The translations under genes were made by a program, and so were the position numbers. Below the pieces are notes generated by a model. It did no database searches. It was given only the letters and a program-made list of their open reading frames with translations, and was not told the DNA's origin. Shown one piece after another: positions 19,289 through 38,507 of a stretch of 64,000 bases of DNA. The stretch is from Erysipelotrichaceae bacterium (GTDB taxonomy: Bacteria > Bacillota_I > Bacilli_A > Erysipelotrichales > Erysipelotrichaceae). The stretch's first letter is position 1. Every line of letters starts with the position of its first letter. The stretch lies in NCBI GenBank assembly GCA_022772735.1, contig JALEZD010000023.1, positions 1 to 64,000 on the forward strand. Direction: 5' to 3'.

Positions 19289-19332
19289 GGAAATAAAAAT
19301 TAGTAACTATATTTAGTTTAATGGAGGATATT

Positions 19333-20340
19333 ATGAGTGAAAAAATGAAAGAAAGTGAAAAAGATTTATTGCTTAAAGAAGCATTAAAGAGCATTGAAAG
19401 AAGTTATGGTAAAGGAAGCATAATGAAGCTTGGAGAAAAAGCAAATGTTGATATTGATGCTGTTTCAAGTGGTTCATTAGCGCTTGATTATGCTTTAGGA
19501 ATAGGGGGTTACCCAAAAGGAAGAATTATCGAGGTTTTTGGTCCAGAATCAAGTGGTAAGACCACAATTGCTTTACACGCAATTGCAGAAGCTCAAAAAG
19601 CAGGTGGGAGAGCTGCGTTTATTGATGCAGAAAATGCTATCGATCCTCAATATGCTAAATCTTTAGGCGTAGATATTGACGAGTTAATTTTATCTCAACC
19701 TGATTCAGGTGAACAAGCTTTAGAAATTGCAGAAGCACTTATAAAAAGTGGGGCAATAGATGTTATTGTTATTGATTCAGTTGCTGCACTAGTCCCACAA
19801 GCTGAATTACAAGGTGAAATGTCTGATGCTAATGTTGGACTTCAAGCACGATTAATGTCAAAAGCAATGAGAAAGTTAGCTGGTGCAATTAATAGAACAA
19901 ATTGTATTGCAATTTTTATTAACCAGTTAAGAGAAAAAGTTGGAGTAATGTTTGGAAGCCCTGAAACTACAACAGGAGGAAGAGCATTAAAATTTTATAG
20001 CACTATTCGTCTTGATGTAAGACGAGGAGAAGCAATAAAAAATGGTGTAGATATTGTTGGTAATAAAGTTACTGTAAAAGTTGTAAAAAATAAAGTTGCT
20101 CCACCATTTAAAAATGCAATTATTGAAATTGCATATGGAGAAGGAATATCTCATATTGCAGAGGTTATTGAGCTTGGGGTTGAACATGAAATAATTCAAA
20201 AAGCTGGTGCTTGGTTTTCATATAATGGTGAAAAAATTGGTCAAGGTAGAGAAGCAGTTAAAGCTTATTTAAAATCTAATCCAGAAATCGATTTAGAAAT
20301 TACAGAAAAAATAAAAGAAAAATTATTTGGAAGTAAATAA
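19333..20340 (+). CDS. recA: Recombinase RecA
   Basis: 335 residues. Walker A is GPESSGKTT near residue 65; [27 protein letters not shown] is the strongly conserved L2/core stretch. It drives homologous strand exchange and the SOS co-protease reaction. GGAGG lies 5 nt before this ATG, four codons inside the longest frame. No GAAC-N4-GTTC LexA box is seen in the 44 bp after pgsA, so it may be read through from pgsA. Confidence 0.97.
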
Positions 20341-21437: not shown

Positions 21438-24400
21438 ATGAAAAAAATAGTAAAAATTTTTTTATTTATTTCTATTCTTTTGAGTTTAAGTAGTATACAA
21501 AACCTAGTTGCAGAAGAAGATAAAATTGAATATGAGGAAGTCATTTATGAAAATATTAAAAATGAAGATTTAAATATAACAGATAATTATAAAGAAATAA
21601 AAGAAAAAAATGATGACATAACAGATGACTCTATAGTAAGTGATGAGACAATAAATGAAGATATAATTTTAGAAAATGAAAATTTAGAAGAATTAGATAG
21701 TAATACAGTTGAAAATGATAACTTGTTTTATGAAGAAATAGATTCTAATGCTGATGCAAGTGACATATCTTTGTTAGAAAATGATATTAATGAAAATATT
21801 GAATTAAATCCAATTTTAGATAGTAATGTAATAGATGAAAATAGTATAGAAGAAAAAAATGAGGTATCTGTAGATGAAAACAAAGAAGAAAATCCTGAAT
21901 TATTCATCGAAAAAGATAAAAATGAATATGAAATAAATGTTTTTGAACAATTTGATGAAAAAAGTGAAATAGAGAAAATAATTGATGAACAAAATACTCA
22001 GTATAAACAATTAAAGGAATACATTTTAGATAATAATGAAATATTAAATATATTAAATGGTAATGAAAAACCATTCAAAAAAATAAAAAGTCAGTATAGA
22101 AGTAGTGAAGATTTTGTTGAATGTTATATTAACAATTTTGAACTTATAAAAACCTATGATGGGACTGCACCATTTGATATTAATGATGATAAGGGGAATG
22201 ATAGTAGTTTTGATAATAAAATAGTTAGAAGTTTTGATAAAGTAGTATATAGAACAGCTTATAGTACACTTAGTAAAAATATTTTAGATACGTCAATGAG
22301 TGGTCGTTTTTATTTAAAAGCTATATTGCCAGTATCTAGTAAAATTGCTAGTTTTGATATTAAAGCAATGGAATGGATAGAAAATTTAACTGTTGATATT
22401 CAAGAAGATTATAGTGTATTAGAAGGTTATATAGATGTTGAAAATCAAGTTGTTTCTCCAAGAGTTGGAGTTATAAACTGGGTTATTTCTATTAATCAAG
22501 CATTTAATAATACAACAATACTTGCGCCAACCTTTTATATTGGACTTAACGATAAAAATTACTTGAGTGTTGTTGGAGAAAATTTAAGGGTAAGTGCTAA
22601 ACCTAATATAAACGCAAAAATAAACTATGAAGGAATTTTTGATGATAAACAATTATTTTCCATTGTTTTAGAATTGTATTCAGATGTTAAAGGAAAGGGA
22701 ATAAAAGGACAAGAAATTTTAAATGATAATGAGAGTATTTCTTTTAAGTTATTTCCTAATGACAATCATAAAATAATTGATTATAAGGTAAATGATAATT
22801 CAACAAGTACATTTTTAAAAAATGAGATATATGGAAAGTTAGCACCTATTTCTGGTAAGAATAGTTCAGATTTTAATATGGTGTTTAACAGTGGTGAAAT
22901 TAATATTGTAGATAATTTTGTTACAATAAATAATTTTAAATTTGATAATTTATATAACAAGGTTACAAATAACTCTAATAAAAATAATTCTTTACAAGGA
23001 TTTGATTACGATGATGATAGATATCCGTTTGGTTCATACGTTTTTTTAAGCGATATACCTGATAATATAATCAATAATAAATTTTACACATTTAAGATTA
23101 CTGACTTGATTGCTAAAGACAAATTAGGAGAAGAAATATTAGAAACAAATATTGATGATAATATTGCGGGGTATACACTTGGAAAACCAGAAGGAGGAGG
23201 AAGTGGTGGAGGTGGAGGACCTGCACAGTTTTTGACAATTAATGTAATAAATTCTAGCACAAAAGAGAGATTTACATTAATTGGTAAAGATGCAACAAGA
23301 AATATACCTCCAGATTATTATGTTTATCCAAATGATTTGGTTTCAATTAGCCAAGGTGCAATGATGTATAAAAACTTTGATAGAGCTTATATGAAACAAT
23401 ATTTAGGATTTATAAAATTTGATACAAACTTTTTTGAAGTGTTAAAAAATGATGAACAGTTTTCTAATCCAATACCTAATAACAACCTAAGAAATTTACA
23501 ATTTAATTGGGTATGTAAAGAAAATAAAAATGGTTGGAATAGTGAAGAAGAAATGTATAATACACATATTGATGATATAAAAAATCAAAATGGTTTTAAA
23601 TTGTATAATGATGTAAACTCTGCAATAAACGATGGATGCAAGGTGATTGGATTTTTTAGTGTAAGTGAATTTGTTAATCCTAATTATAATATTAGCTTTG
23701 ATGCATTTGGAACATATCCTGCAATAAGAGTAAAAAAAGATGTATTAATTGATAAGAGTACAAATAAGTTATTAGAAAAAGATAATCCAAAAAGAGTTGG
23801 AGTTATTTTAGGAGAATTAGAAGGTATAGATTTTGATGGGAACATTTATAAAAGATACAATGTTTTTAATTCACTAGGTGATGATTTAGATATGTATAAA
23901 AATCATAAAGATATTAAATTGGGTTTTATTAAAGCTAAATATGATAAAAATGGAATTATATCTATTTCAAGTAGTAGCAATGCAATTGGTAATAGAAATG
24001 GAAATTGGACACATGCTGCAAGTTTAGTTGGAGGAGCGTTTTTTGTGAAAGATTATAATACCTATATAAATACCCACATTTCACAAAAAATAAATGATAC
24101 TACGAATAAAGAGGTATTTAATCTTGATATGAATCAATATAATGTGTATTTTGATATTGAATCAGGAACATCTTTAGATACTATGGTTAATATTACTGAT
24201 GATTTTGAAATTATACAAAGAATACCAAGTACCATCAAACCATTTAAAAATGATAGTAATATAGAAAAGAAATGGAACATAGTATATGATGGAGAAATAA
24301 TTAATGATAATAGTCAGGATGGTATAAATATTAACAATTATTCGACAAACTTTTTAACATCTAAAACTTGTTTAAATATTCCAAACAATATTATTAGATA

Positions 24401-26069
24401 TGAAGTTGAAGAAAAAATCGATGGAGAATATACAGAGATAATTTGGAAAATATACAATTATCCTGTATCGTACAAACTGCCTAAAATACATTTTGCAGGA
24501 AAAATAGATGAAAATATTGGTAATAATCAAAATATTGTTTTAAACAGTATTATTAAATCAAAAAATATGCTTAGTACAAATGTAGATAACATAGGATTAA
24601 AAACAATACGAATTGGTGGAGCAACAATTAGTAAAGTAGCAAATCCAATTATTAGAAATAATAAGCCAATAAAATTTAACATTGAGTTTTCAAATCAAAC
24701 AATATTTTTTGATAGTAGTGAAAATATTGATGCGATTATTTACGATGATTTAGATAGCAATAATGTTTTAGGTAATTATTTTTTAAACAATATTGATTTA
24801 ATTTCAGAAATATATAATAAGGATAAAAATAGTAGCCCTAAAATAAGATTTATTTATTCAAATGTTAAAAAGGATTTAAACTTAGATAGTTTGAATAGTA
24901 TATTAGATATTAATAATTATGAATTTATTGATTTGAGTTTAACTAAAAATAACGATATATATTATATTGATGATGATTCAATTGGTAATATTAAAAATAT
25001 ACTGAAAAATGAAAAAATTAGGGAAATTGCATTTTGTTTTGAAAATATTGGATATAATTCTAAATTTTCATTATCTTATGAATATGATTGGAATGATAAA
25101 AATGAAAAGATTATTAAGGAAAATAATTTAACAGTTGAAAATATAGCATATTTAAAAGTATTTTCAAATATCAATCAAGTTACATTTGATAAGGCAATAT
25201 CTTATCCAAATATTTTAAAAGAAATAACTAAAATAAATGATAAAAAAAGTGAGGATATTAATGGATTAAATAACTCTTTAGTAAAAGAAAACGACATAAT
25301 AGAATATAAAATAAACTTTATTAATACTAAAAATGAAAATGTAAAAGTTACAATTTTTGATAAGATACCTACTGGCACACAAATTATTGAAACTTCTATA
25401 AGTGATGGCGGGATTTATGATAAAAAAAGCAATAATATAAAATGGGAATTTTCAAATGTTAAACCAAATATGATGAAAAGTGTCTTATTTAGTGTAAAAG
25501 TAATTGATGATAACACCATAACTATAGAAAATAGAGGCAGAATAAAATTTGATGATGATCCATTTATAGAAACAAATGTTATTATCAATCCTAAAATTAA
25601 ACTTTCTGCATATAAAGATAGTAATGTAAAAAATGGAAGTATTGTAAATGATAAAGATAAAATTGAATATTATATAAAGATTAAAAATGAAAGTAATTTT
25701 GATATTGAAAATATAAAAGTTAAAGATAAAATACCAAAAAATACATTGTTCCATAAAGTTAATAATGGATATTTTATGGAAAATTTAAATGAAGTTTATT
25801 TTGATATACCATTAATAAAATCAAATGAAGAAATAACAGTTTCTTTTGTTGTTGTCGTGGATAGTAATAATAAAAGTGTTGAAATTGAAAATAGTGCACA
25901 TTATGGAATTGAAATTCCAAATAAAAAAACAAATACAATTTATCATTACACAAATAATAAAGTAATTAAATACGATGTTGTAGAAACAGGAAACAAATCT
26001 ATATTATTAATTTATATAATTACTATATTTATTTCAGGTATTGGCATGTATTTTGTAAATAAAAAATAA
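21438..26069 (+). CDS. Giant secreted surface protein with DUF11-like repeats
   Basis: 1543 residues. A signal peptide (about 1-26) is followed by an acidic, low-complexity stretch to about residue 190, long Asn/Asp/Ser-rich beta-type regions, and a glycine linker near residue 585. Two tandem DUF11-like domains lie at about 1282-1395 and 1400-1500, each starting with an IEYKI- or IEYYIKI-type strand and containing a DKIP segment. The C-terminus is VVETG, a 17-residue hydrophobic helix and NKK, the layout of a sortase signal with a non-LPxTG motif. AAAGGAGG precedes the ATG. Probably a wall-attached or membrane-attached adhesin or structural protein; the ligand is unknown. No sortase gene is in the window. 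Confidence 0.85.
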   Translation: MKKIVKIFLFISILLSLSSIQNLVAEEDKIEYEEVIYENIKNEDLNITDNYKEIKEKNDDITDDSIVSDETINEDIILENENLEELDSNTVENDNLFYEEIDSNADASDISLLENDINENIELNPILDSNVIDENSIEEKNEVSVDENKEENPELFIEKDKNEYEINVFEQFDEKSEIEKIIDEQNTQYKQLKEYILDNNEILNILNGNEKPFKKIKSQYRSSEDFVECYINNFELIKTYDGTAPFDINDDKGNDSSFDNKIVRSFDKVVYRTAYSTLSKNILDTSMSGRFYLKAILPVSSKIASFDIKAMEWIENLTVDIQEDYSVLEGYIDVENQVVSPRVGVINWVISINQAFNNTTILAPTFYIGLNDKNYLSVVGENLRVSAKPNINAKINYEGIFDDKQLFSIVLELYSDVKGKGIKGQEILNDNESISFKLFPNDNHKIIDYKVNDNSTSTFLKNEIYGKLAPISGKNSSDFNMVFNSGEINIVDNFVTINNFKFDNLYNKVTNNSNKNNSLQGFDYDDDRYPFGSYVFLSDIPDNIINNKFYTFKITDLIAKDKLGEEILETNIDDNIAGYTLGKPEGGGSGGGGGPAQFLTINVINSSTKERFTLIGKDATRNIPPDYYVYPNDLVSISQGAMMYKNFDRAYMKQYLGFIKFDTNFFEVLKNDEQFSNPIPNNNLRNLQFNWVCKENKNGWNSEEEMYNTHIDDIKNQNGFKLYNDVNSAINDGCKVIGFFSVSEFVNPNYNISFDAFGTYPAIRVKKDVLIDKSTNKLLEKDNPKRVGVILGELEGIDFDGNIYKRYNVFNSLGDDLDMYKNHKDIKLGFIKAKYDKNGIISISSSSNAIGNRNGNWTHAASLVGGAFFVKDYNTYINTHISQKINDTTNKEVFNLDMNQYNVYFDIESGTSLDTMVNITDDFEIIQRIPSTIKPFKNDSNIEKKWNIVYDGEIINDNSQDGININNYSTNFLTSKTCLNIPNNIIRYEVEEKIDGEYTEIIWKIYNYPVSYKLPKIHFAGKIDENIGNNQNIVLNSIIKSKNMLSTNVDNIGLKTIRIGGATISKVANPIIRNNKPIKFNIEFSNQTIFFDSSENIDAIIYDDLDSNNVLGNYFLNNIDLISEIYNKDKNSSPKIRFIYSNVKKDLNLDSLNSILDINNYEFIDLSLTKNNDIYYIDDDSIGNIKNILKNEKIREIAFCFENIGYNSKFSLSYEYDWNDKNEKIIKENNLTVENIAYLKVFSNINQVTFDKAISYPNILKEITKINDKKSEDINGLNNSLVKENDIIEYKINFINTKNENVKVTIFDKIPTGTQIIETSISDGGIYDKKSNNIKWEFSNVKPNMMKSVLFSVKVIDDNTITIENRGRIKFDDDPFIETNVIINPKIKLSAYKDSNVKNGSIVNDKDKIEYYIKIKNESNFDIENIKVKDKIPKNTLFHKVNNGYFMENLNEVYFDIPLIKSNEEITVSFVVVVDSNNKSVEIENSAHYGIEIPNKKTNTIYHYTNNKVIKYDVVETGNKSILLIYIITIFISGIGMYFVNKK

Positions 26070-33506: not shown

Positions 33507-34517
33507 ATGAAGATTTTACTTTATTTTGAAAGTGAAGAATTAATTCAAACATCAGGGATAGGAAGAGCATTTAAACATCAACAAAAGGCCTTAGAACTTG
33601 CGGGGGTAGAATATACAACTGATCCATGGTCAGATGATTATGATATATTACATATTAATACTTATGGATTTAATTCAGATGCAATAATAAAAAAGACTAG
33701 AAATATGGGTAAAAAAGTAATTTACCATGCACATTCAACTGAAGAAGATTTTAAAAATTCTTTTGTTTTATCAAATCAAATTGCACCAATATTTAAAAAA
33801 CATATTGTTTCACTTTATTCAAAGGCTGATGCAATAATAACACCAACACCATATTCAAAATCAATTTTACAATCATATGGAATAAATTTACCAATTTATG
33901 ATGTAAGCAATGGAATAGATTTAAACAGATTTAAATATGATGAAGAGAAAATAAAAGCATACAGAAAGTATTTTAGTCTTTCTAAAGATGATAAAGTTAT
34001 TTTATCAGTAGGACTATTTTTTGAAAGAAAAGGTCTATTAGATTTTATTGAAATCGCAAAAAAACTTCCAGAATATAAGTTTATTTGGTTTGGAAACACT
34101 CCATTAATAAGTGTTCCAAAAAATATTAGAGATGCACTAGAAGATATACCAAATAATTTAATATTACCTGGATATGTTAAAGGACCGATTATTGAAGGTG
34201 CATATTTAGATGCAGACTGTTTCTTTTTTCCATCATATGAAGAAACAGAAGGTATCGTTGTTTTAGAAGCTCTTGCGAGTGGGCAACAAGTCCTTGTAAG
34301 AGACATAGGTGTTTTTAATCCATGGTTAAAAAATGGTGAAAATTGTTATAAAGGAAATAATAATGAAGAATTTATTTCATTAATACATGATATTGTAAAC
34401 AAAAAAATTCCACACACAGGATTAAATGGAATAAAAACTGCAAATGAAAGAAGTATTGAAAATGTAGGTGAATCTTTAAAAGGGGTTTACTTAGAAGTTT
34501 TAAATACAAGGGAATAG
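33507..34517 (+). CDS. GT4 glycosyltransferase, glycolipid (LafB/CpoA/BgsA-like)
   Basis: 336 residues. LLYFESEELIQTSGIGRAFKHQQKAL-type N-terminus, YDILHINTYG, HAHSTEEDFKNSF and PTPYSKSIL closely follow the processive diacylglycerol glycosyltransferases (LafB/CpoA/BgsA) that add the second sugar to monoglucosyl-diacylglycerol. The E-x7-E nucleotide-sugar motif is in EETEGIVVLEAL. It is a peripheral membrane protein of GT-B fold. First of a cluster with a flippase-like membrane protein and a LafA-like enzyme. GGAGG precedes the ATG. Confidence 0.88.
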   Translation: MKILLYFESEELIQTSGIGRAFKHQQKALELAGVEYTTDPWSDDYDILHINTYGFNSDAIIKKTRNMGKKVIYHAHSTEEDFKNSFVLSNQIAPIFKKHIVSLYSKADAIITPTPYSKSILQSYGINLPIYDVSNGIDLNRFKYDEEKIKAYRKYFSLSKDDKVILSVGLFFERKGLLDFIEIAKKLPEYKFIWFGNTPLISVPKNIRDALEDIPNNLILPGYVKGPIIEGAYLDADCFFFPSYEETEGIVVLEALASGQQVLVRDIGVFNPWLKNGENCYKGNNNEEFISLIHDIVNKKIPHTGLNGIKTANERSIENVGESLKGVYLEVLNTRE

Positions 34518-34532
34518 TAGTATAATAATTGT

Positions 34533-35582
34533 ATGATTAATAAAATAAAAAAACTTTTTCAAAGTTATATTTTTAATATAGCTTTAATTATATTCATAAC
34601 TTTATTAGTGTTATATCTAACGCTAAAAGACTCATTTAGTGATGTTGTCAAGATTTTATCAAATGCGAATATATATTGGGTTTTATCAACTATTATAATC
34701 TCAATATTTATACAATTTGTTATTGGAGAGGGTTTATTTTTACTAACCAAATTGTCTAATCCACATTATACAAGAAGAGATGGAGCTATAAATGCATTTG
34801 TAGCCAGTTTTTTTCATGGAATAACTCCAAGTGCATCAGGAGGGCAATTTGCACAAGTTTATATTTTTAAAAAGCAGGGTGTCGGATTAAGTGATTCTGC
34901 AAGTGTTTTATGGATGGACTTTATAATTTATCAAAGTACGATGATAGCTTTAGTATTGTTTTTAATAATTATAAGATTTGCATATTTTAAAGCGAATTTT
35001 TCTGATTTATTTTATTTAGTGATTGTTGGTTTTCTTGTGAATAGTGCAGTAATTATAGGATTATGGGCATTAGTTAAATTTCCAAGAGTATATAGATTTA
35101 TAACAACTAAAGGAATAAAACTTGCTTTTAAATTAAAAATTATAAAAAATCAAAATGAAGCACTAGAAAAATTAAATCTTCAATTAAATAGATTTGAAAA
35201 AGAAACAAAAAGATTAAAAGAACATAAACTATTAATACTAAAAGTTGTTATTGTTAATTTATTTAGATTACTTCTTTATTATTCACTACCTTATTTTTGT
35301 GCAAAGGCACTTAATTTAGAAGTGAATTTTGGACTTTTAATTGATATAATTGCATTATCATCATATGTATCTATGATTAATGCATTTATACCAATACCTG
35401 GAGCCAGTGGAGGCACAGAAGCAACTTTTATGTATCTTTTCTCACACATATTTGGTGGAGTTACGACAAGTGGTTTAATGATATTATGGAGATTTGTTAC
35501 ATATTATTTAATAATGTTGATTGGTGGAGTTGTATTTATAATAGCCAAGAATTTGCCAGATAAAATTACAGAAAGGGAATAA
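34533..35582 (+). CDS. Flippase-like/LPG-synthase-type membrane protein (PF03706 family)
   Basis: 349 residues with about eight membrane helices. VASFFHGITPSASGGQFAQ and the PIPGASGGTEATF segment near residue 290 are typical of the lysylphosphatidylglycerol synthase membrane domain/UPF0104 family. The soluble aminoacyl-transferase domain of MprF is absent. Standing between two glycolipid glycosyltransferases, it may help translocate or organise glycolipids or lipoteichoic acid anchors. Its stop is 2 bp before the next start. Confidence 0.85.
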   Translation: MINKIKKLFQSYIFNIALIIFITLLVLYLTLKDSFSDVVKILSNANIYWVLSTIIISIFIQFVIGEGLFLLTKLSNPHYTRRDGAINAFVASFFHGITPSASGGQFAQVYIFKKQGVGLSDSASVLWMDFIIYQSTMIALVLFLIIIRFAYFKANFSDLFYLVIVGFLVNSAVIIGLWALVKFPRVYRFITTKGIKLAFKLKIIKNQNEALEKLNLQLNRFEKETKRLKEHKLLILKVVIVNLFRLLLYYSLPYFCAKALNLEVNFGLLIDIIALSSYVSMINAFIPIPGASGGTEATFMYLFSHIFGGVTTSGLMILWRFVTYYLIMLIGGVVFIIAKNLPDKITERE

Positions 35583-35584
35583 TT

Positions 35585-37576
35585 ATGAGGATTGGACTTT
35601 TTACAGACACATATTTACCTGAAATAAACGGAGTTGTAAGCAGTGTTCATACACTTGAAAAAGAATTGATTAAACAAGGACATGAAGTTTATGTAATAAC
35701 TACTAAACCTGACTTTCAAAAGGCAGAGTTAGAAGGTAATATTCTAAGATTACCTGGTATTGAACTGAAATTTTTATATGGATATGTTTTGACTACTCCA
35801 TTCCATATTAGTGCATTTAATACTATTAAATCATTAAAATTAGATATAATTCATGCACATACAGAATTTAGTATTGGTATTTTCGCAAGAATTTGTTCAA
35901 GACTTTTAAGTATACCTTTAGTAAGTACATATCATACAACATATGAAGATTATACTCATTATGTTAATTTTATTGATTCAAAAGTAGTAGATAATGTTGC
36001 TAAAGCGTTAGTTGCTAGATTGAGTAAGTTATATGGTGATTCAAGTGTAGAGGTTATATCTCCAAGCCAAAAAACAAAAGATATGCTTATTGGTTATGAT
36101 ATAAATAGAAATATTCATGTTATTCCAACTGGATTAGATATAAAAAAATTTAATATCAAAAATACAAGTGATACTCAAATTAAAGAAATAAGAAAAAGTT
36201 ATAATATAAAAGATGATGAAATATTAGTAACTTATATTGGAAGAATTGCAGGAGAAAAAAGTATTGATTTTGTTATTAGAGGTTTTAAATATGTTAAAGA
36301 AAAAAATATTAAGGCAAAACTTTTGATAATTGGAGTTGGTCCAAAAAACGAAGAAGAAAATTTAAAGAAACTATCTGTTGATTTAGGCATAGATGATATT
36401 GTTATATTTGGTGGTAAAAAACCAGCAAGTGAAGTTCCACACTATTATCATAGTTCTGATGTATTTGTGTCTGCTAGTTTATCTGAAACTCAAGGAATGA
36501 CCTTTATAGAAGCACTTGCAAGTGGACTTCCAGTTTTTGCAAGACATGATGCTGTATTAGATGAAATAGTTTATGAAGGAAAAACAGGATTTTATTTTGA
36601 TACAGAAGAAGAATTATCAGAAAAACTTCAAAAGTATATTTCATTAAGCAATGATGAAAAAAATAAGATAAGTTTAAATGCTATTAAACAAATCGAGCCA
36701 TATGATTGTGAAGTTTTTGCTAAAAAAGTATTTAAGGTTTATGAACAGGCTATTTCTACATACAAAAATATGTATGTAATTGATGAAGTTAGAGTTAAAG
36801 ATGATCATGTTGTAATAATAGTTGAATCACCTAGTGGTGAAGAATTTAAACTTATTGTAACAAATGATACATATACTAACGAAGGATTAAGAAAAGAACA
36901 AAAAGTTAGTGAAGAAAAAATTGAGCAATTAAAAAAAGAAGAATGTGCAGTAAAAGCATATCAAGGATGTATAAATAAAATAGCTAGCAGAGATAGAACA
37001 AGAAAAGAAATATATGATTTTATTACAAATAATTTCGAATGTGATATAAAGCAAGTAAATGATATTGTAGAAAAACTTGAAGAAAGAGGATATATAGATG
37101 ACTACAGATATGCAAAAAACTATATTGAATTAATGAAAGCTGCTTTGCAAGGTGAAGGTAAAATAGTTTCAGGGTTAAAGAAAAAAGGTATTTCTTATGA
37201 TTTAATTGAAGATATTTTAGAGCATAATAGCGATGATGAATTAGAACATGCTATAAAGTGGGCAAATAAGGTGAAAAGCTCAATCAGAGACACATCGGTG
37301 AAGATGAAAAAGAACAATTTGTATAAAAAAATGATTGTTCAAGGATATAGTAATGATATTATTGTTAAAGCTATGGAGCATATAAGTTTTGTTGAAGATG
37401 AAAACTGTGAAATCGAAAATTTAAGAAATGCAGCTTATAAAACAAAAAAAAGATACCAGAATAAATATGAAGGTACTAAATTAAGAAATTCAATTTTTAA
37501 ATATTTAGCAAGTGTGGGATATAGAGTTGAAGACATTTATGTAGTTTTAGATGAAATGGAGTGGAATGATGAGTAA
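35585..37576 (+). CDS. Fusion: GT4 diacylglycerol glucosyltransferase (LafA/BgsB-like) and RecX
   Basis: 663 residues in one continuous frame. Residues 1 to about 392 are a complete GT-B enzyme with MRIGLFTDTYLPEINGVVSS, HTEFSIGIFARI, STYHTTYEDYTHY and SETQGMTFIEAL, like enzymes glucosylating diacylglycerol. From about 397 the rest is a full RecX: the N-terminal beta segment (YVIDEVRVKDDHVV), then three-helix repeats with RDRTRKEIYDFI, VEKLEERGYIDDYRYAKNY and LKKKGISYDLIEDIL. RecX modulates RecA filaments. No stop, frameshift or internal ribosome binding site stands out at the junction. yhaM overlaps the 3' end by 8 bp. An unusual pairing of lipid synthesis and recombination control. Confidence 0.85.
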   Translation: MRIGLFTDTYLPEINGVVSSVHTLEKELIKQGHEVYVITTKPDFQKAELEGNILRLPGIELKFLYGYVLTTPFHISAFNTIKSLKLDIIHAHTEFSIGIFARICSRLLSIPLVSTYHTTYEDYTHYVNFIDSKVVDNVAKALVARLSKLYGDSSVEVISPSQKTKDMLIGYDINRNIHVIPTGLDIKKFNIKNTSDTQIKEIRKSYNIKDDEILVTYIGRIAGEKSIDFVIRGFKYVKEKNIKAKLLIIGVGPKNEEENLKKLSVDLGIDDIVIFGGKKPASEVPHYYHSSDVFVSASLSETQGMTFIEALASGLPVFARHDAVLDEIVYEGKTGFYFDTEEELSEKLQKYISLSNDEKNKISLNAIKQIEPYDCEVFAKKVFKVYEQAISTYKNMYVIDEVRVKDDHVVIIVESPSGEEFKLIVTNDTYTNEGLRKEQKVSEEKIEQLKKEECAVKAYQGCINKIASRDRTRKEIYDFITNNFECDIKQVNDIVEKLEERGYIDDYRYAKNYIELMKAALQGEGKIVSGLKKKGISYDLIEDILEHNSDDELEHAIKWANKVKSSIRDTSVKMKKNNLYKKMIVQGYSNDIIVKAMEHISFVEDENCEIENLRNAAYKTKKRYQNKYEGTKLRNSIFKYLASVGYRVEDIYVVLDEMEWNDE

Positions 37577-38507
37577 ACTAATTAATGATTTTGTTAGTAA
37601 GGATGTAATTAACCAACCATTATTTATAAAAGGTGTATTAAAGGGTGCAACCGACAAAGGTGCACCATATTTAACAATAACATTACAAGATAAAAGTGGA
37701 AGTATATCAAGTAAACTTTGGAATGTATTACCTACACAGGAAGAAATTGCACAAGTTGGGAAAATAATAAATGTTAGTGGAGATGTTATTGATTATAATA
37801 ATACTTTACAATTACGAATTAGAAATATTGAAGAAGTTGATATGTCATTAATTGATATGAACGATTTTATTATAAAATCTGATGTTCCAATTGATGATTT
37901 AAAAATTAAAATTAATGACACAATTCATTCAATAAAAAATAATATTTATAGAGATATTATTAAAAATCTTTATTCACTTTATGGAGATGATTTTTATAGT
38001 TATCCTGCAGCTTCAAAAATACATCATAGTTTTATGGGAGGACTTGCAGTTCATGTTTGTGGAATGATAGATTTAGCCAACGAAGTTTGTAAGTTATATC
38101 CTCAACTTAATAGAGACTTGCTTATTTCAGGAGTTTTAGCTCATGATATTGGTAAAATGGTAGAATTTAGTGGACCTATAACTACTGAATATACTTTAGA
38201 GGGTAAATTAATTGGGCATATTTCAATTGTTCAAGGACAAATAATGGAAATATCTAAAAGATTAAATGTTCAAGATAGTGAAGAATCTATTCTTTTAAGA
38301 CATATGGTGTTAAGTCATCATGGTCATTTAGAATATGGGTCTCCTGTACTTCCAATGGTTCAAGAAGCGGAAGTTTTATATTTTATTGATAATCTTGACG
38401 CAAGATTAAATAGTTTAGATACTTTATTAAAACCGATTAAACCGGGTAGTTTTTCACCGAAGGTTTTCTCGCTAGAAAATAGATCGTTTTATAAACCAAA
38501 AGAGTAA
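37569..38507 (+). CDS. yhaM: 3'-5' exoribonuclease YhaM family (OB fold plus HD domain)
   Basis: 312 residues. N-terminal OB-type nucleic acid domain (about 15-95, TITLQDKSGSISSKLW), then an HD phosphohydrolase domain with KIHHSFMGGLAVHV, LAHDIGKM and LSHHGHLEYGSP. Degrades RNA and possibly single-stranded DNA from the 3' end. GGAG precedes this ATG, inside the end of the fusion gene. yhaM close to prsA and hit recalls the Bacillus neighbourhood. Confidence 0.93.
   Translation: MSKLINDFVSKDVINQPLFIKGVLKGATDKGAPYLTITLQDKSGSISSKLWNVLPTQEEIAQVGKIINVSGDVIDYNNTLQLRIRNIEEVDMSLIDMNDFIIKSDVPIDDLKIKINDTIHSIKNNIYRDIIKNLYSLYGDDFYSYPAASKIHHSFMGGLAVHVCGMIDLANEVCKLYPQLNRDLLISGVLAHDIGKMVEFSGPITTEYTLEGKLIGHISIVQGQIMEISKRLNVQDSEESILLRHMVLSHHGHLEYGSPVLPMVQEAEVLYFIDNLDARLNSLDTLLKPIKPGSFSPKVFSLENRSFYKPKE

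Follow-up and report, generated by a model that had tools for sequence, protein, structure and literature searches.

RecX is encoded as the tail of a glycolipid glycosyltransferase-like protein in most RecX-bearing Erysipelotrichales

The fused gene and its neighbourhood

RecX restrains the DNA-repair recombinase RecA. In the window, by which we mean the whole 64,000-nucleotide stretch of Erysipelotrichaceae DNA that was analysed, the recX sequence occupies the 3' part of a gene that begins as a glycosyltransferase. The features on which the analysis rests are as follows.

19321-20340, forward strand: recA, the expected partner of RecX, on the same contig (PF00154, 457.8 bits)
33507-34517, forward strand: second glycolipid glycosyltransferase, IagA/BgsA (LafB) family (502 bits against a curated cut-off of 460)
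34533-35582, forward strand: flippase-like membrane protein (LPG_synthase_TM, TIGR00374), directly upstream of the fusion and a conserved neighbour
35585-37576, forward strand: fused gene of 663 amino acids, GT4 glycolipid synthase-like domain plus RecX, recurring in relatives
35585-36766, forward strand: glycosyltransferase domain, residues 1-394, monoglucosyldiacylglycerol synthase/LafA-like with a GT-B fold (NCBIfam NF049988; fold)
36485-36511, forward strand: E301-x7-E309 motif (EX7E) of GT4 retaining glycosyltransferases, both glutamates invariant in 53 fused proteins
36767-36772, forward strand: junction, residues 395-396, predicted to lack a linker (AlphaFold2 model; Y386-V397 spacing)
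36773-37576, forward strand: RecX domain, residues 397-663, with the C-terminal extension of Firmicutes RecX (NCBIfam NF010733; profile match to 3e3v)
37551-38507, forward strand: YhaM-like 3'-5' exoribonuclease gene overlapping the end of the fusion, with a likely start at ATG 37566 or 37569

The initial annotation read positions 35585-37576 as a single frame joining a complete LafA/BgsB-like enzyme to a complete RecX, with boundaries at residues 392 and 397, and both ORF analysis (one unbroken frame of 663 codons) and family matches agree with it. Residues 1-394 match Pfam GT4 families above their cut-offs and align with nearly the complete NF049988 model for alpha-monoglucosyldiacylglycerol synthase; because the score of 286 bits falls below the curated cut-off of 400, the substrate of this glycosyltransferase (GT) is not certain. 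The LafB/BgsA-type partner expected of a LafA/AlMGS enzyme is encoded nearby (33507-34517, 502 bits).

Residues 397-663 match NF010733 (PRK14135, Firmicutes RecX) over nearly the full length of that family, and we refer to this half as a RecX-domain protein rather than an equivalog because its 142 bits lie below the cut-off of 240. Homology covers the three-helix repeats, both by profile and by PF02631 (27.3 bits against a cut-off of 26 in a search of the window's genome), and a RecX profile built from relatives recovers the solved RecX chains 3e3v (E 1e-24), 3d5l (4e-19) and 3c1d (2e-7). The core residues D506, L531, G535, G587 and G645 are the same as in free RecX. A RecX would be expected as a separate polypeptide of ~150-270 residues; here the frame specifies 663. 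The identity of the C-terminal half rests on sequence: in a fold search with the whole chain, the top 50 matches were GT structures only, among them the GT4 enzymes BshA/MshA/PimB'. An AlphaFold2 model of the full chain (pLDDT 89.6, pTM 0.71) predicts a last GT helix at residues 375-394, two intervening residues and a first RecX strand at 397-404, forming a compact junction with pLDDT of about 90, with the placement of the domains relative to each other less certain than the domains themselves. The annotated boundaries fit this predicted helix and strand.

recA lies 15 kb upstream of the fusion in the same window, as expected of a genome with RecX, and genome searches of the 27-contig draft found no second recX, free or otherwise. 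Additional weak RecX matches in two relatives (G027 and G045) are short fragments. Of 19 genomes examined for recA, 17 had it; G016 and G056 yielded no candidates at all, even for recA, and were left out as unreadable. Between recA and the fusion, positions 21438-26069 encode a secreted protein of surface type, 1543 residues long and carrying a membrane anchor at its C terminus. At the other end of the fusion, the conserved EMEW terminus of the RecX half (37551-37576) appears to serve also as the ribosome site of yhaM: GGAG at 37558-37561 precedes the likely yhaM start, and the codon for E659 is GAG in 22 of 26 relatives, as compared with 24% GAG overall.

Distribution and origin of the fusion

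Fusions were counted by taking each RecX profile match and measuring the open frame that contains it. A frame of at least 600 amino acids was found in 118 of 140 RecX-bearing genomes of the same family and in 40 of 42 from the sister family of the order, with several of the genomes that lack such a frame having it cut by contig ends. Outside the order, RecX is separate in each of the 94 genomes from the class, and no RecX frame exceeds 317 amino acids, in line with the earlier statement that RecX is normally free. The genomes among the matches listed in a phylum-wide search all belong to the same class, and a search of a plasmid collection for the fusion gave no match.

In total, over 150 further genomes carry the fused frame, with identities of roughly 35-70%. 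The window's genome is a draft of 27 contigs, and an assembly or sequencing artefact, such as a lost stop codon or a missed frameshift, could in principle create a joined frame; given this recurrence we assign that explanation a negligible probability, and regard the frame as neither the product of chance nor of a stop lost in assembly. The initial annotation had named a sequencing error, or relatives that always have two genes, as grounds for rejecting the fusion, and neither applies. Judged from sequence comparison, this is a genuine and ancient join, and Erysipelotrichales mostly produce their sole RecX as the C-terminal part of a protein that resembles a membrane glycolipid enzyme.

A plausible precursor of this arrangement is found in family f8, which belongs to the same class and lies outside the order. 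There the gene order is flippase-GT-recX-yhaM, with GT and recX as separate genes that overlap by about 23 bases, and in five of five cases compared (L061, L072, L101, L105 and L106) recX begins at a GTG in the +1 frame, preceded by GGAGG and 22 nt ahead of the final base of the GT stop codon. This overlapping pair presumably represents the ancestral state, and one frameshift within the overlap would yield the fusion, which thus seems to derive from two overlapping genes that merged. The suggestion in the initial annotation of an accident of adjacent genes is to this extent upheld, as regards origin.

In the fused genes the former recX start and its ribosome site are gone. Across 58 of them, in-frame starts backed by a Shine-Dalgarno sequence were found at 3 of 1860 junction codons versus 72 of 20052 control codons, so that such starts are no commoner at the junction than elsewhere within the genes; the scan gives no support to an internal translation start that releases free RecX. 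At the GT start, 44 of 50 fused genes have a Shine-Dalgarno match, and the gene of the window is among the six without a clear one. Across both families, 57 of 58 fused proteins share exactly the same spacing from the conserved Y386 to V397. Because the internal start is gone and the junction has the same length in 57 of 58 proteins, RecX should be made only as part of the fusion. Release of free RecX after translation, by cutting of the chain near residues 395-405, is the processing raised by the initial annotation; it would be compatible with the variable junction sequence among relatives, but we consider it improbable given that no conserved cleavage motif was seen at the junction, that junction length is constant (57/58) and that the predicted passage from helix to strand is compact (pLDDT about 90).

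The GT tree places the fused sequences in a manner compatible with one gain and about four separations. The RecX tree resolves less; taken alone it weakly puts the sister family among families other than the window's (support 85), so that two independent fusions may have occurred. Against this, a single RecX clade for the order was not rejected (p-AU 0.50), and the junction spacing is shared by both families in 57 of 58 proteins.

Separation of the halves and the probable location of RecX

Several lineages have since undone the fusion. In one genus (g32) GT and recX are again two overlapping frames, and other breaks are found in G122 and G065, with RecX eroded in the latter; G034 retains GT and lacks RecX. 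In parts of four genera (g3, g23, g26 and g31) the GT half is absent and RecX stands alone ahead of yhaM, while in two loci (L053, 4296-5618; L050, 4261-5418) an intact RecX is fused to what is left of the GT N terminus, shortened and decayed. Because some lineages have re-split the genes or dispensed with either the enzyme half or RecX, the two functions can exist apart. Most of the genomes without GT are also without a clear LafB, which supports the assignment of the GT half to the LafB pathway; the same is true of a few fused genomes, in which the GT product may differ.

Other arrangements were seen around these loci. In five GT-less loci (L043-L046 and L054; g5, g23 and g26) a gene of ~190 amino acids lies directly upstream of recX and encodes a HAD-family hydrolase where tested. 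In genome G138 (L110, 4000-5277) the GT is replaced by an N-terminal extension of RecX consisting of three similar repeats (ERAASAAREIGAPISQSIGRIYSNVRKG type). In genome G201 (L121, 3777-5615) a related GT is fused to what by eye is an apparent DedA/SNARE-associated-type membrane domain and adjoins a LafB homologue; recX is free in that genome.

Within the genus, the GT half has a dN/dS of 0.18-0.22 and the RecX half one of 0.14-0.23, indicating that both are kept as proteins, under similar purifying selection. Between families the RecX half changes faster than the GT half, as judged by dN; dN/dS values of distant pairs were saturated and left out. This faster change, together with scores below the curated cut-offs, could be taken to mean that the RecX half has given up control of RecA and now serves the enzyme, for instance in dimerisation or in sensing of lipid or nucleic acid. 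We find this very hard to credit, as the RecX core residues match those of free RecX, GT-less genomes keep the same RecX, and the domain is the only RecX in a genome with an intact recA.

We think it likely that the protein is an ancient bifunctional one with two independently working domains and with RecX probably at the membrane. From its family and neighbourhood, the N-terminal domain would be the first enzyme of a glycolipid pathway of the lipoteichoic-acid anchor type, transferring glucose onto diacylglycerol on the cytosolic side of the membrane, with the LafB/BgsA-type enzyme encoded two genes upstream acting after it. The C-terminal domain would be the cell's only RecX and would restrain RecA filaments, as its homology, single copy and the presence of recA suggest. 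Comparison among genomes supports a history in which GT and recX were adjacent before Erysipelotrichales diversified, read in different frames and sharing about 23 bases, until a small indel in the overlap placed them in one frame and recX subsequently lost its own ribosome site. Since then RecX would mostly have been made as the tail of the enzyme, and hence at the membrane and in a fixed 1:1 ratio with it. The two domains probably act independently, as certain lineages have detached one from the other or lost one of them. The model enzyme AlMGS is monotopic and resides on the cytosolic face of the membrane (PMC6506492), and because of this we infer a membrane location for both halves, with RecX probably held there. 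E. coli RecX bearing an N-terminal mNeonGreen still inhibits RecA (PMC9252578), and since a large N-terminal tag leaves this inhibition intact the fused RecX can plausibly work.

A stronger reading is that the fusion couples the two functions, either because RecX has to be positioned at the membrane or because the amount or activity of RecX must keep step with glycolipid synthesis, linking membrane state to RecA-dependent repair. Long retention in two families with a fixed junction length, the predicted run of a helix straight into a RecX strand with no linker, and the single RecX of the cell would all fit such coupling, yet we hold it to be unlikely. The GT half has been lost and RecX kept in g3, g23, g26, g31, L050 and L053; RecX has been lost or eroded and GT kept in G034 and G065; the genes of g32 are re-split and overlapping; no conserved regulatory element was seen; and a fixed junction length can follow from a single origin together with the cost of indels. 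The tie of membrane lipid synthesis to DNA damage raised by the initial annotation found no support, and the repeated separation and independent loss of the halves argue against any such link being obligate. Membrane-based control of RecA in Erysipelotrichales, in which RecX would be kept at the cytosolic face and membrane lipid synthesis would govern how abundant it is or how readily it reaches RecA, is likewise unlikely.

Comparison with known systems

Earlier work portrays RecX as a small, soluble regulator of RecA that is dispersed in the cell until damage occurs, and the Firmicutes RecX proteins previously listed are free proteins of 212-272 residues that lack a conserved gene context (PMC3527212). 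In the literature searched, which left most subscription journals outside it, we found no description of a RecX-glycosyltransferase fusion. An order in which RecX is mostly the tail of a probable membrane enzyme provides a natural experiment as to whether RecX must diffuse freely to control RecA. It also illustrates cleanly how a frameshift can fuse two overlapping genes, with both the unfused state resembling the ancestor and the later fissions still to be seen. There is also a practical consequence, in that genomes whose fused protein is named as a glycosyltransferase can appear to be without recX.

The fusion resembles Firmicutes RecX (YfhG of B. subtilis; PRK14135) in its full-length homology, including the C-terminal extension, in its single copy and in the presence of recA, but differs from these free proteins of 212-272 residues (PMC3527212) in forming residues 397-663 of another enzyme and in scoring below the equivalog cut-off. 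With alpha-monoglucosyldiacylglycerol synthase/LafA/BgsB (GT4; Acholeplasma AlMGS) it shares a whole-length match (residues 1-391), the EX7E motif and adjoining LafB/BgsA-type and flippase-like genes; unlike those enzymes it bears a RecX domain, and it reaches 286 bits against the cut-off of 400. The lafA-like/recX pair of f8 has the same gene order, flippase-GT-recX-yhaM, but specifies two proteins, with recX having its own GGAGG and GTG start. As in mNeonGreen-RecX (PMC9252578), a large domain sits on the N terminus of RecX, an addition that is tolerated in that construct, which in contrast to the fusion is artificial, soluble and made with E. coli RecX. The protein described here is a new architecture of known families, and not a new kind of system.
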